The notes beneath the pieces are model-generated. The model did not search any database. It was not told the origin of the DNA and was given only the letters and a program-made list of their open reading frames with translations. DNA of 31,963 bases from the IMG/VR virus record IMGVR_UViG_3300020459_000044, positions 1 through 31,963 of that record. The stretch is one strand, 5' to 3'. Shown here in pieces: positions 6,944 to 24,055 of this stretch. Source of the DNA: a virus. Both the position numbers and the translations under genes were made by a program. The stretch's first letter is position 1, and each line of letters begins with the position of its first letter.

Positions 6944-7186
6944 TTAATGTTGATATTTCTTAACACTTGCTTCCCATTCCTTCATAGATGATTGTAATTG
7001 ACCCTCATTCTCCTTTGGATCTAACTTATTATATCCATTCCTTTTTTTCCATTCATTATACATTGCTCCCATTATCCATGATTGAGAAAGACTTTTAGGC
7101 CCATTCAACAATAATTCTACCTTCTTACCTGAATAGTAAGGTATAGATTCTTCTCTCCAATTGGAGTCATCATAAAGTTTTGCCAT
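6944..7186 (-). CDS. Small hypothetical protein (80 aa)
   Basis: An 80-aa soluble, Lys/Trp-rich protein (MAKLYDDSNWREESIPYYSG at the start, EWEASVKKYQH at the end). Its ATG directly follows the stop of the upstream basic protein, with GGAG inside that gene's last codons, so the two are translationally coupled. No domain is recognised. Its pairing with the putative internal head protein may mean it is a partner or another virion protein, but this is inference. Confidence 0.6.
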   Translation of the reverse strand: MAKLYDDSNWREESIPYYSGKKVELLLNGPKSLSQSWIMGAMYNEWKKRNGYNKLDPKENEGQLQSSMKEWEASVKKYQH

Positions 7187-7672
7187 TTAATCTCCGTATG
7201 AAAAAGTTTTTCCTTTGATTTGGGATTGACCATATGGGTTTTTACCTTGAGGTTTGAACCTACCCACATTTTCTCCTTTTTTATCTAATCCTCCTTTCCT
7301 TGTTCTATGAAGTGTAGCAGTTTTTTTTGTTTGAGTCAACACTGAGTCCTGCCCATACTTCTTACCCAGTTTCTTTACTTCTTTCTTAAACTTCCTTTTA
7401 CTTTTTTTACCACGATCTATAACATAACTTTTCTCTTTCACCTTTCTTTCATCTTTTGTGCCAGGATTTTCTAAATATGAACCCTTTACTTTAGTTGGTC
7501 CTCTACCAAATTTACCACGAATATCTTTTTGTAATTGCTTTGATCTTGCTTGATTTTCCTTTCTTGATTTGTCGCCACGATCAGCAGAAAGAGCTGCTAC
7601 ACCACTCTTATCAGACTTGGATTTGATTCTAGAGAGACTACTCTCTTGCATAAACTCTTGATATGTCTTCAT
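7187..7672 (-). CDS. Putative internal head protein with T4-type capsid-targeting sequence
   Basis: The 161-aa protein starts MKTYQEFMQES. The first seven residues and the tenth are identical to the capsid-targeting sequence of T4 internal proteins IPI and IPIII (MKTYQEFIAE). In T4 that sequence brings these proteins into the prohead and is cut off after the Glu by gp21 protease. Here cleavage would follow Glu10. The rest is extremely basic and low in complexity, with repeated Lys/Arg-Gly motifs (RGKKSKRKFKKEVKKLGKKYG), which suits a protein packed with DNA. A late-promoter-like AATAAATA (7695-7702) lies 22 nt before the ATG. T4 internal proteins are injected and can counter host defences. 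The same role here is inference, and a nucleic-acid-binding protein of another kind remains possible. Confidence 0.7.
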   Translation of the reverse strand: MKTYQEFMQESSLSRIKSKSDKSGVAALSADRGDKSRKENQARSKQLQKDIRGKFGRGPTKVKGSYLENPGTKDERKVKEKSYVIDRGKKSKRKFKKEVKKLGKKYGQDSVLTQTKKTATLHRTRKGGLDKKGENVGRFKPQGKNPYGQSQIKGKTFSYGD

Positions 7673-7694: not shown

Positions 7695-7702
7695 TATTTA
7701 TT
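7695..7702 (-). promoter_or_regulatory. Late-promoter-like AATAAATA before the internal head protein gene
   Basis: The minus strand reads AATAAATA, one base from the T4 late consensus TATAAATA, 22 nt before the ATG of the putative internal protein. It overlaps the stop codon of the small gene upstream. The spacing agrees with the late motifs before tail and capsid genes. It would give this gene late expression inside an otherwise early or middle gene region. Confidence 0.45.
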
Positions 7703-18473: not shown

Positions 18474-18911
18474 TCAACCCAATCCAGATTGGAATCTCAT
18501 AAACTCAATTGCATTTTTTATTTGAAAAGTTCTGTTCTGCACCACCTTCAATATACTTTCAATGTATGTAAGCATCGTATCATAGTATTCTATCTTAAGA
18601 GATGAGTTTGAAAGTTTCTCATCTGCATCAAGATACTTGGTCATTGTATCTTTATCTCTTATCTTTTTTCCAAAAGGATCTTTCTGATATACTTCTGGGT
18701 CTGCTTTCCCACTAAAATACTCATACCGTTCATGACGGATGTTCTTTCTTTGTTGTTCTGCCTTCTTTCTTAATAAGAAGATTGTATTATATAATTCAAA
18801 ATACTTTGCATGTAGAGAGGGGATGTTTAAAGATTCTTCATGTAGATTATCTCTGTCTATCTTTGCATCTTTTTCCCACATCTCTTGAATAGATTCAAGA
18901 TTTATACTCAT
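18474..18911 (-). CDS. uvsY: UvsY recombination mediator
   Basis: The 145-aa protein resembles T4 UvsY (137 aa): MSINLESIQEMWEKDAKID at the start, HERYEYFSGKADPE (T4 A-R-L-D-Y-Y-S-G-R-G-D), a central LDADEKL (T4 L-S-A-D-K-D-V), and the C-terminal FQIKNAIEFMRFQSG (T4 F-A-I-K-H-I-Q-D-M-R-A-F-E-A-G). UvsY loads UvsX recombinase on gp32-coated single-stranded DNA. It overlaps the gp3 stop (ATGA) and precedes uvsW, as in other T4-like phages. Confidence 0.92.
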   Translation of the reverse strand: MSINLESIQEMWEKDAKIDRDNLHEESLNIPSLHAKYFELYNTIFLLRKKAEQQRKNIRHERYEYFSGKADPEVYQKDPFGKKIRDKDTMTKYLDADEKLSNSSLKIEYYDTMLTYIESILKVVQNRTFQIKNAIEFMRFQSGLG

Positions 18912-19468
18912 AAAGGATTGTTAGCAGTATCGGTTATATTGTACATAGTATACTTGAAAGATACGTCTGCTGTAAAGTATTCTATGTCAGTATCTGTAGC
19001 ATCAAAAGTCATAGTTGTCAAAGAGTAAGGCCATAATTCATTAAAATTAACATTAAACTTTGCTACCATATTACTACTTAAAATCTGAAGAGTTCCATCA
19101 GAATATATTTGATCTCCAGTATTCTTGTATGTTTTAGGTATTGTAGAAGTGCCAGATTTTTCCCACTCATCAAACTGTTCTGTGCTTTCTGGATATCCTA
19201 ATCCTCTTAACCACTTTTGAATTTCCATGTAATTAGTAAGATCTTCATCTACTAAAAATCTAATATTTAAATCTCCAAAATCAATTTTATCACCAGGTGT
19301 TGGAAGATCTCTAAGTGGGTTTGGTTGTATTGCAACACCAAGATTTAAATCAGGAATGTTTGCCTGATTACAAAAATATGCAACACCTGGTGATCTTTGC
19401 AGATTGAATTTAAAACCTACTGGAGATAAAAAATTCCTATTTTCAATTTGTGCCTTTCTCGTTGCCAT
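18908..19468 (-). CDS. 3: Tail completion protein gp3 (tail-terminator/tube-like fold)
   Basis: The 186-aa protein lies between the halogenase-like gene and uvsY, the gp3 position of T4-like cyanophages. Features include NFLSPVGFKFNLQRSPGVAY, a segment IRFLVDEDLTNYMEIQKWL that resembles the D-E-D-L-x-x-Y-x-E-I-x-x-W signature of gp3, and repeated beta strands to the end. In T4, gp3 caps the tube at the head-proximal end of the tail and stabilises the sheath (176 aa). The start ATG overlaps the stop of a two-codon frame, ATG-AAC-TAATG, and the good ribosome site AAGGAG is placed for that mini-frame, so initiation may be by re-initiation. A CTAAATA motif lies 23 nt upstream. Confidence 0.8.
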   Translation of the reverse strand: MATRKAQIENRNFLSPVGFKFNLQRSPGVAYFCNQANIPDLNLGVAIQPNPLRDLPTPGDKIDFGDLNIRFLVDEDLTNYMEIQKWLRGLGYPESTEQFDEWEKSGTSTIPKTYKNTGDQIYSDGTLQILSSNMVAKFNVNFNELWPYSLTTMTFDATDTDIEYFTADVSFKYTMYNITDTANNPL

Positions 19469-19486: not shown

Positions 19487-20620
19487 TTATGTATTTAGTT
19501 TTATATTCATCCCTTCATTCCATACTTTAAAATAATATGCTGGCCATTGACCATAAAACTTATCCCTTGTTGCTCCACCATACTTTGATGTTGGTATACA
19601 ATCACTAATTTGACTATACCCTAAAAACTTATCAAAGGTTGGATCCTCAAATCTAAATGCTTTTGCATAATCCCAGAACGGTGTATCATACTTAGATCCA
19701 AACTGATAGTGCCAAAGAACAAAATTCTTAAGTTGATTGATATAATTTTTAATATCATTCGCAACAAATTCTGCACTACATTTTTCTTGTAAGTAATAAT
19801 CAAATACTGCTCTAGCCATTTCAATGTATGTCTGAGTAGAAGATGACTCTAATGGTTCTAAGAAGAATAATCTATTTCCATTCAGGAATATTCTACCATC
19901 CTTGATTGGATTCTTTGCGACATAATTTTTATAATCAATATGATTTGTCACTTCAACATTGAACATTTCTAAGAAATTATATTCTGCTTCCTCTTTAGGT
20001 GTTATGGTTGAGTTATAACAATAACCAACAGAATACTGATGTGATGGTGATTTCTTACGTGTTGGTATAACAAATGCCCATCCATCAGGAGTTGCCACAT
20101 GTCTGCTCCAAGGATTCTTTGCAGTATTCCAATTTGGTTCTCCTAGAATACATGCATTAGTTGGATTCTTTAATTCTTCATATTCTAGAAAGTCTTTTGG
20201 TTTACCTCTACAATCAAATACAAAATCAGCATCTACATCTTCAGGATCTACATCACCTTCTGTTACTTTAAAATGACCAGATTGTAAGATACTTTTTTGC
20301 ATTTCCCAAGGGCAGTAATGCATTGCCATACTGTCTGATGGGAAAGGTGCGAATACTTTCTTATTAACTTTACCCCAACCTTCATATAATATACCACTCT
20401 TCATCGTGGCATTTATATTGTTATTATACCAGTTAAACCCAGTCGTAGCCCACAATAAACCTGGTGGTTCTAATACTGTTGCTTGACCAACTTTTTCTGG
20501 TGGTATGTTTGGATTATATATTAACTCTACTTCTGAATTAGTTTGCTTCCCTCTCCATGCACAATACAATGCAGTGAAACATCCAGCATTACCACCACCA
20601 ACTACTGCTATCTTTGGCAT
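19487..20620 (-). CDS. prnA: Flavin-dependent tryptophan halogenase-like protein
   Basis: The 377-aa protein begins with the FAD-binding motif VVGGGNAG (6-13). EKVGQATV (42-49) matches the family G-E-A-T-V-P region. NATMKSGILYEGW (70-82) aligns with N-A-T-F-K-L-A-I-R-F-x-x-W of PrnA, keeping the catalytic Lys (Lys74). GWAFVIP (180-186) corresponds to the W-x-W-x-I-P motif but has lost its first Trp. LFFLEPLESS (251-260) is the family E-P-L-E-S motif. PrnA-type enzymes (about 530 aa) chlorinate tryptophan with FADH2, oxygen and chloride. This one is much shorter. The substrate is unknown and could be a host metabolite or a protein. It follows gp23 and has its own sigma70-like promoter and structured leader. 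The symbol is a family label only. Confidence 0.8.
   Translation of the reverse strand: MPKIAVVGGGNAGCFTALYCAWRGKQTNSEVELIYNPNIPPEKVGQATVLEPPGLLWATTGFNWYNNNINATMKSGILYEGWGKVNKKVFAPFPSDSMAMHYCPWEMQKSILQSGHFKVTEGDVDPEDVDADFVFDCRGKPKDFLEYEELKNPTNACILGEPNWNTAKNPWSRHVATPDGWAFVIPTRKKSPSHQYSVGYCYNSTITPKEEAEYNFLEMFNVEVTNHIDYKNYVAKNPIKDGRIFLNGNRLFFLEPLESSSTQTYIEMARAVFDYYLQEKCSAEFVANDIKNYINQLKNFVLWHYQFGSKYDTPFWDYAKAFRFEDPTFDKFLGYSQISDCIPTSKYGGATRDKFYGQWPAYYFKVWNEGMNIKLNT
19492..19498 (-). promoter_or_regulatory. CTAAATA late-type motif before gp3
   Basis: The minus strand reads CTAAATA 23 nt before the gp3 ATG, overlapping the end of the halogenase-like gene. The same heptamer at the same distance precedes gp19 and gp20, which supports a promoter role for the T4-type late machinery with C in place of the first A of the core. 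Confidence 0.45.
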
Positions 20621-22263: not shown

Positions 22264-23355
22264 TCAGGATTGCTTAAATGCTGAAAGTGTCTTCAGATAA
22301 GCAGACATTGAACCTGTTGCATTTTCAGGTGAAATATCAACTCCTTCTGAAAGTGATTCAGATTTAGCTGTTGGTGTTACTTGTGAAGTGAAATAAGATT
22401 CCCTCAAAGTTTCCAACTTCTCACGATAAGATTCTTCACTTTCAAACTCTACACTTTCGGCAAGTGAAGCGAGCTTCTCTTTCTGAGTAGACGCTAATCC
22501 GTCAGAAACTGATTCAAGAATACCATTAGCAACAGATTCGCCAAGGCGACTGTTTAATCCAACGTTCTTCTCAATCTGCTCATTGAGCTTGGTTTCCATA
22601 TCATCTAGTTTTTCTACCATGCTTTCAAGCACATCATATTTGTCTTCAGGGATTGATACATAATGTTCTTCAAAAAGACCTCGCATTCCTTCAAGGAATG
22701 ATTCAGTCATATCTGTTTTAAGACCTTGCTCAACTGCAAGGGCATTTTCGTTAAACCACTCATCTGCAACATACTCAAGATAGTTATCAACACGCTCAGA
22801 AAGTGCGGCTTTTTCTGCCTCGATCTTTTCTTCAAGTGTCTCTTGGTATTTTGCTTCTAAAGCTTCATGAATTTCGGAAACTTTAGAATTCAAAGCAGTC
22901 TCGAATACAAGCTTTGCTTTTTCTCTAAACTCTTCAGAGAGTTCTTCGCCACCTAGTAGGGCATTAACATCATCTTCAATGTTAACTTCAACTGTTTCTT
23001 CCACAGTTTCCTCCTCTGCGACAACTTCTTCAGTAGTTTGCTCTTCTTCTTCAATTACTTCATCAGAAACTTCTGTCTCTTCAGCTTTCATTTTACCTTT
23101 ACGGTTAGTAACCACATCGCTCACTTGCTTAAGTGATGCACCTGGGGTTTTGAGTTTTGCTGAATCGTCATCCACCTTGTAATTTTCTGGTGTAGGTCCG
23201 CCTAGATCTTCATAACTAGGGGCAGTGCCACCAGTAGTTAATTTAGGCATTGGATCACCAGGTTTGGCGTTGGCGTTCACAGCAGTCTTAGATTGACTAA
23301 CACTAGGGTTAGCAACAGACTCATCCATTTCTTGTAATTTTTTACCACGAGACAT
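22264..23355 (-). CDS. 22: Prohead scaffolding (core) protein gp22
   Basis: The 363-aa protein is acidic and largely helical, with long Glu-rich stretches (about residues 95-150) and heptads through the middle and C-terminus (EEFREKAKLVFETALNSKVS, LDDMETKLNEQIEKN). It lies between protease gp21 and capsid gp23, the scaffold position in T4 (269 aa). It would form the core on which gp23 assembles and then be cut to peptides by gp21. The first 80 residues are low-complexity. A late-promoter motif lies about 33 nt upstream. Confidence 0.92.
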   Translation of the reverse strand: MSRGKKLQEMDESVANPSVSQSKTAVNANAKPGDPMPKLTTGGTAPSYEDLGGPTPENYKVDDDSAKLKTPGASLKQVSDVVTNRKGKMKAEETEVSDEVIEEEEQTTEEVVAEEETVEETVEVNIEDDVNALLGGEELSEEFREKAKLVFETALNSKVSEIHEALEAKYQETLEEKIEAEKAALSERVDNYLEYVADEWFNENALAVEQGLKTDMTESFLEGMRGLFEEHYVSIPEDKYDVLESMVEKLDDMETKLNEQIEKNVGLNSRLGESVANGILESVSDGLASTQKEKLASLAESVEFESEESYREKLETLRESYFTSQVTPTAKSESLSEGVDISPENATGSMSAYLKTLSAFKQS

Positions 23356-23404: not shown

Positions 23405-24055
23405 TTATAAGTTTGATAAGAAATCATTGAATAAATTCAACTTTTTCTCGTCTAGTTGTTTTTGATCAACTAATGTATTAATGTGTTTGTAGGTTTTCTC
23501 TGCGAACCTCTCACGCAGAATTCCACCATCCCAAACCCAGTCTTTTCCTTCCATAATTCCAGATACAAATGCATCAGGAGCTGAAGGATCGGCAACGATA
23601 TCAGCAGCAGTTGCTAACATAAAATCTTCACCTACGACAGAATAGCCTTCTTTCGTTTGTTGAAGTGAACCAACACCACGAGAAGATACGCCAAGTTTAA
23701 CACCTTCTTCAATTAGTGAAGATGCAATTTTACCCATTGGTGTAGAAAGTATCTTTGCTTTACCAATGAAGTTTGAACCGTTCTCTTTTAAAGAAACGAT
23801 TTTATGTGATACCCTATCCAAGTTAACAGTAGGGCCTTCTGGATGACCAAGTTCACCGAGTGCTCTTCCTGAAGTAATGTGGTTTTCGCTATAGCGACCC
23901 ACTTCCTTTCTAAGAGTTTCCATAGGATACATACGACCATTACGGTTCTTTATGTTTCCCTGTAGAAAAACGCCCTCAATATACATTGACTTCTTGCCGT
24001 TCTTTTGTTCGACGAGAAATTCAACAGATTCGATTTCTTCTCTAATCAGTTTCAT
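23405..24055 (-). CDS. 21: Prohead core protein protease gp21
   Basis: The 216-aa protein matches T4 gp21: MYIEGVFLQGNIKNRNGRMY, ALGELGHPEGPTVN with catalytic His71, LGVSSRGVGSLQ with the catalytic Ser at 124 or 125, and ADPSAPDAFVSGIMEGK. This is the herpesvirus-type (S78/U9-like) prohead protease. It removes the scaffold and trims gp23 and internal proteins during head maturation, so it is also the expected processor of the putative internal protein at 7187-7672. The ATG overlaps the stop of the upstream gene (TGATG). Confidence 0.96.
   Translation of the reverse strand: MKLIREEIESVEFLVEQKNGKKSMYIEGVFLQGNIKNRNGRMYPMETLRKEVGRYSENHITSGRALGELGHPEGPTVNLDRVSHKIVSLKENGSNFIGKAKILSTPMGKIASSLIEEGVKLGVSSRGVGSLQQTKEGYSVVGEDFMLATAADIVADPSAPDAFVSGIMEGKDWVWDGGILRERFAEKTYKHINTLVDQKQLDEKKLNLFNDFLSNL

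Follow-up and report, generated by a model that had tools for sequence, protein, structure and literature searches.

The window, i.e. the whole stretch of DNA analysed, is an IMG/VR virus record of 31,963 bases whose nearest DNA belongs to marine single-cell viruses and to Kyanoviridae, e.g. S-SM2 and P-TIM68. On its minus strand, positions 7187–7672 hold an ATG-initiated frame of 161 codons with the N-terminus MKTYQEFMQE, coding for a member of the phage S-adenosylmethionine (SAM) lyases (Pfam PF23780; PHROG 12788, 1.4e-49) that bears a capsid-targeting-like tag. The further features named in this paragraph lie on the same strand. The tag, residues 1–10, occupies 7643–7672, and the lyase domain, residues 27–147, occupies 7232–7594. 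A late-type promoter motif, AATAAATA, is located at 7695–7702, 22 nt from the ATG, as the sequence-only reading of this DNA had reported. An 80-residue gene (6944–7186; PHROG 16908) begins directly past the lyase stop codon. The window also encodes the enzyme expected to process a tagged head protein, a gp21-like head maturation protease (23405–24055; PHROG 207, 4.6e-83), and its expected core partner, a gp22-like head scaffolding protein (22264–23355; PHROG 237, 5.1e-109). The 161-residue protein was rightly described as extremely basic, with a pI of 10.35, 46 lysines and arginines and a net charge of about +29.

The SAM lyase domain

Residues 27–147 match PF23780 with 73 bits against a curated cut-off of 28. 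The part following the tag had been taken for a low-complexity sequence, which proved wrong, and a low-complexity DNA-binding protein is ruled out by the Pfam and fold matches. An AlphaFold2 model of moderate confidence, built from a 47-sequence alignment (pLDDT 67.7, pTM 0.63), has the T3 SAM lyase as its best structural neighbour (8bb1, Z 13.7 over 129 residues at 2.9 Å; 7ock, Z 13.5), followed by Svi3-3 (6znb, Z 8.2; 6zm9, Z 7.2), with unrelated folds from Z 6.4 and the SAM-AMP lyase 9gad at Z 5.4. As modelled, the fold of the cargo is the PII-like lyase fold of phage SAM lyases. Searches of solved structures with the single sequence and with a shallow profile did not find a SAM lyase, and a deeper profile gave weak matches to T3 (E 0.057) and Svi3-3 (E 0.29); the structural claim therefore rests on the Pfam match and the fold search.

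In Svi3-3, the SAM site is lined by Gly56, Tyr58, Glu69 and Gln104, and the E69Q substitution leaves almost no activity (PMC7877911). Profile alignment, albeit with weak E-values, places G64, Y66, E80, Q108 and D109 of the window protein opposite these residues and Glu105, and the same positions are also aligned with T3. All 47 aligned sequences have G64, Q108 and a D or E at position 109; Y66 is present in 42 and E80 in 36, the replacement of E80 in the other 11 being perhaps a misalignment. The cargo is a predicted SAM lyase, presumably active and trimeric.

The window protein thus shares Pfam family, fold and catalytic positions with T3 SAMase (8bb1, 7ock) and Svi3-3 (6zm9, 6znb). T3 SAMase, which is made early after entry, is untagged and near-neutral (+1.7), whereas the window protein is tagged, preceded by a late-type motif and strongly basic. 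The SAM-AMP lyase of type III CRISPR and the candidate AcrIIIB4 have a related PII-like lyase fold, but the SAM-AMP lyase is the weaker structural match and acts on another substrate; we know of no capsid tag on either.

The N-terminal tag and its spread

The likeness to T4 internal proteins pointed out by the sequence-only reading holds: IPII and IPIII (NC_000866) begin with MKTYQEFIAE, identical to the tag at 8 of 10 positions and different at positions 8 and 9, and IPI begins with MKTFKEF and has its hydrophobic-x-Glu (Phi-x-E) site further on. Targeting by the T4 tag depends on residues 4 and 7 and processing on residues 8 and 10; a protein with Asp at position 10 is still targeted but no longer processed, and foreign proteins bearing the tag are packaged and injected (PMC9026906). 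The window protein has the aromatic residue (Y4) and F7 needed for targeting, and its tag ends in M8-Q9-E10, by sequence a Phi-x-E protease site with a predicted gp21-type cut between Glu10 and Ser11. Followed by at least 60 open codons, the pattern MK.[FYL]..[FY][LIMV].E has a single match in the window, and five shuffled windows contain none. Residues 1–11 of the model have pLDDT under 50, so that the tag apparently lies outside the fold.

The same residues recur in relatives. In the 80 relatives kept out of 257 confirmed in a first scan, F7 and a hydrophobic residue (M, L, I or V) at position 8 are universal, position 4 is Y or F in 79 and Leu in one, and E10 is present in 76. The remaining four have Asp10 and, like P-TIM68, a second site, I-Q-E, inserted at 13. 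In P-TIM68, where the lyase combines Asp10 with IQE13, the strict tag pattern accordingly has no match, and a relaxed pattern finds three genes. More distant families, like T4 IPI, follow the same plan with linkers of different length, and in these families the Phi-x-E site still precedes the lyase domain; this linker comparison took in 42 of the 80 S-SZBM1-like loci. The sets of loci partly overlap and are related, so the counts given here are of distinct sequences and not of independent events. Most of the relatives' 179 distinct N-regions retain the T4-critical residues and a Phi-x-E site, and the residue two ahead of the site Glu is hydrophobic (or Cys) in all 179, a set for which the search pattern itself demanded the cut-site Glu.

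In the SSL class, an F..F tag shortly after a Met is present in 121 of 134 distinct N-regions; the other 13 comprise one with Leu4, one truncated by the end of its contig, five distant relatives and six longer, fused frames that lack a tag. Relatives that keep the lyase and lose the tag, which the sequence-only reading had held would refute it, are accordingly few in this class. In the GNRT class, the F..F motif is found in 45 of 45 regions, at a free-standing N-terminus in three and inside longer proteins in 42, which counts against a purely N-terminal signal.

The tag also behaves as a module. A scan of IMG/VR DNA for MKT, an aromatic residue, F7, a hydrophobic residue at 8 and E10, of the kind that the sequence-only reading had proposed, found at least 80 loci with at least 89 tagged frames. 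Among the matches listed, 87 frames over 40 residues fall, after removal of their first 12 residues, into at least 51 sequence clusters (E 1e-4). SAM lyase is the commonest Pfam match, in 21 of the 84 distinct tagged frames of at least 50 residues among those listed; further listed matches are to ADP-ribosyltransferase, acetyltransferase and DPBB families, one listed frame (L420) is a T4-type internal virion protein, and most listed frames other than SAM lyases have no Pfam match. The late motif accompanies 46 of the 87 listed frames versus 96 of 860 in the background. On individual marine viral contigs, we observed a tagged ADP-ribosyltransferase (PF18760; L392:6037-6813), a tagged GNAT acetyltransferase (L413:9945-10313), a tagged DPBB protein (L378:2400-2801) and a group of four tagged genes (L387:6505-9422), all of which are candidates for packaged and injected proteins.

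Late-type motif, neighbourhood and virion proteomes

The motif N[AC]TAAATA is conserved upstream of the lyase gene: of 58 distinct upstream regions, 54 have it between −45 and −20, whereas the figures for other ATG ORFs of at least 80 residues are 10 of 399 on the same strand and 0 of 75 on the opposite strand (Fisher 8e-55, for sequences that are related). On the minus strand of the whole window, it is not enriched (18 seen versus a shuffled mean of 21) and is thus informative by placement only. Within 70 nt, it precedes 10 of 26 window genes checked, namely, those for the lyase, scaffold, portal and sheath, uvsW and the genes starting at 19468, 24615, 24937, 27275 and 31783; it is absent within this distance from 11 early or middle genes as well as from gp23, gp21, gp17 and the genes starting at 18911 and 20620. 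Several of the names of these 26 genes are our presumed assignments, with the head genes confirmed by PHROG. In S-CREM2, ORF6, 13, 15, 136 and 154 have TATAAATA or GATAAATA at −27 to −30 and ORF12 and 14 have neither. In P-TIM68, the motif lies at −29 of the lyase gene and −14 of a gene for a tagged cytidyltransferase, with none at gp111, and it was not found at any of four S-SZBM1 genes checked.

The 80-residue gene lies downstream of the lyase gene in 54 of 56 loci having a neighbour, the window included. Upstream neighbours could be assessed in 55 of 59 loci, again with the window included, and fall into nine clusters (20, 8, 8, 7, 5, 3, 2, 1 and 1 members); in the window, the lyase gene has no qualifying upstream neighbour. 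Because the downstream gene is constant and the upstream neighbours vary, promoter, lyase gene and 80-residue gene act like a cassette. The 80-residue product is possibly a partner or antidote of the lyase. In S-CREM2 and S-H34, a DNA adenine methylase gene lies upstream of the lyase gene with one small ORF between.

S-CREM2 ORF6 is a homologue of the window protein, with 57.5% identity over 96% of the query and the tag MKDFDSFLEE. CsCl-purified virions yielded 19 unique peptides of this protein, covering 26.3% of its sequence, and the authors suggested that it enters with the DNA and protects against restriction, cautioning that such proteins may co-purify (PMC10665884, Table 3 for the detection). 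The strict tag is found in four of 219 S-CREM2 ORFs, i.e. the lyase, a kinase, a cytidylyltransferase and ORF13, all of them virion-detected (4 of 52 detected versus 0 of 167 undetected ORFs; Fisher 0.003). Looser patterns give a weaker association (Fisher 0.006 to 0.024), taking in the detected baseplate protein ORF122 together with undetected ORF71, 175 and 199 and, at their loosest, undetected ORF44 and 102. S-CREM2 ORF12 (L087:7704-10313), present in virions and carrying a Cas9 annotation, did not match any Pfam family; it and an S-H34 protein (L084:965-3898) display an F..F[LM].E motif about 20 residues from the start.

The association did not recur by pattern in S-SZBM1 (0 of 30 detected and 2 of 188 undetected ORFs), in whose virion proteome of 30 proteins the tagged small ORFs 191 and 192 and the fused lyase ORF194 are absent. 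The sole virion enzyme of S-SZBM1, a cytidylyltransferase, has a shortened tag, MRFRQFIIEA; a tagged cytidyltransferase is also encoded by P-TIM68. S-SZBM1 ORF194 (L091:2381-4504; relatives L249–L328) is a lysine-rich protein of 707 residues, encoded near neck and terminase genes, with a SAM lyase domain at its C-terminus and the motif ITYREFIAE immediately ahead of that domain. Possibly, the head protease processes this protein as a precursor at several Phi-x-E sites.

A SAM lyase as a probable internal head protein

We consider it probable that the window protein is a T4-type internal head protein with a SAM lyase as cargo, which would be packaged, cleaved, injected and active as a trimer. 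The lyase part of this reading is supported by the domain, the fold and the catalytic positions, and the packaging part by the tag residues kept in relatives, the variable linker behind which a Phi-x-E site persists, the late motif, the detection of the S-CREM2 homologue and the other strictly tagged S-CREM2 ORFs in virions, the modularity of the tag and the head protease and scaffold genes in the window. Counting against the reading are the S-SZBM1 negatives for virion proteins and late motif, the internal motif of GNRT-class proteins, the six untagged SSL-class fused frames, the replacements at E80, the possible co-purification in S-CREM2 (PMC10665884) and the moderate confidence of the model. 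The sequence-only reading had proposed an injected, anti-defence internal head protein; that idea, with packaging, cleavage and injection as predictions for the window protein, survives the tests run, but the identity of the cargo had been missed. The protein would be synthesized late from its own late-type promoter within a region of early and middle genes. Its first ten residues would bring it into the prohead core via the aromatic residue 4 and Phe7, and a gp21-type protease would cleave after Glu10. The 151 remaining, strongly basic residues would be held on the packaged DNA by charge and be injected along with it. Inside the host cell, a PII-like trimer would at once split SAM into methylthioadenosine and homoserine lactone. 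As to the purpose of SAM loss, we infer that SAM-dependent defences, i.e. type I restriction and BREX, would be starved ahead of all phage gene expression. The DNA adenine methylase of S-CREM2 and S-H34 would presumably run short of SAM if the lyase were made early, but not with a small injected dose followed by late synthesis.

Like IPI, IPII and IPIII of T4, the window protein is basic, preceded by a late-type motif and characterized by an aromatic residue 4, Phe7, a hydrophobic residue 8 and Glu10 within its first ten residues; longer propeptides resembling that of IPI also occur among its relatives. It differs in that its cargo, a SAM lyase, matches none of the T4 internal proteins and in that its packaging is a prediction. 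IPI binds one restriction enzyme, GmrSD, whereas the window protein would remove a cofactor. The nearest precedent is S-CREM2 ORF6, the virion 'SAM hydrolase', which is homologous, tagged, preceded by the late-type motif and already proposed to be injected (PMC10665884), but has 414 residues and a C-terminal extension. A virion SAM hydrolase is therefore known already, as a 2023 proposal (PMC10665884), and the tag is known from T4. The text of PMC10665884 does not mention targeting, internal protein, signal peptide, N-terminal, propeptide or cleavage, and in the open-licence literature we found no paper linking the T4 tag to a SAM lyase. What appears to be new is the combination of tag and SAM lyase, how widely it is spread and the conservation of the late motif.

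Some of these data would also fit a late-expressed SAM lyase that stays unpackaged and acts in the producing cell, e.g. against superinfecting phages or host methylation, its first ten residues being the enzyme's own N-terminus. In 42 of 45 GNRT-class regions, the motif stands directly ahead of the lyase domain within a fused protein; this placement, the S-SZBM1 proteome negatives and the possible co-purification of the S-CREM2 protein (PMC10665884) all favour the unpackaged enzyme. Nevertheless, we regard it as unlikely in view of the at least 51 sequence clusters fronted by the tag, the position of residues 1–11 outside the confident part of the model, the variable linker and the finding of all four strictly tagged S-CREM2 ORFs in virions.

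Two further explanations retain packaging and change the role of the cargo. An injected lyase might have another SAM-derived molecule as its true substrate, such as the type III CRISPR signal SAM-AMP, whose lyases share the fold (9gad, Z 5.4); since the model is far nearer to the T3 SAM lyase (Z 13.7) and marine picocyanobacteria seldom carry CRISPR systems, this appears very improbable. Just as improbable is a basic protein that is packaged to condense DNA and descends from a lyase no longer active. The net charge of about +29, versus +1.7 for T3 SAMase, is consistent with such a protein, but the invariance of G64 and Q108 in the 47 aligned relatives, Y66 in 42, the D or E at 109 throughout and an active-site alignment with T3 and Svi3-3 that holds argue for a retained enzyme.

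If the window protein is indeed an internal head protein carrying a SAM lyase, T4 internal proteins and phage SAM lyases would join as one mechanism of counter-defence, in which an injected enzyme strips the host of a cofactor, and the tag becomes a simple sequence handle for finding further injected phage proteins. A broader hypothesis, to which we give about even chances, is that marine T4-like phages make general use of the T4 capsid tag, as the address label of an arsenal of injected effectors. The SAM lyase would be its commonest recognisable cargo, delivered ready-made and able to empty the tiny cyanobacterial cell of SAM in seconds, ahead of any phage gene expression; it would be made late and packaged to spare the phage methylases. 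A Prochlorococcus cell has a SAM pool of about 10^4 molecules, as estimated from cell volume and concentration. The T4 head contains 40 copies of Alt and 360–370 of each internal protein (PMC9026906), and the turnover measured for Svi3-3 with 1 mM SAM at 25 °C was 9.5 SAM per second (PMC7877911). Plausibly, 40–370 copies would empty the Prochlorococcus pool in about 3–26 s, ignoring resynthesis and lower saturation.

PADLOC gave no hits. An ORF of 372 residues with a TTG start (1016–2134) weakly matches the DruA family of defence proteins (27.3 bits against a cut-off of 27), and in some relatives a homologue of this DruA-like ORF lies directly ahead of the lyase gene. Finally, a tryptophan-halogenase-like gene (19487–20620; PF04820, 2.4e-26) adjoins the major capsid gene.
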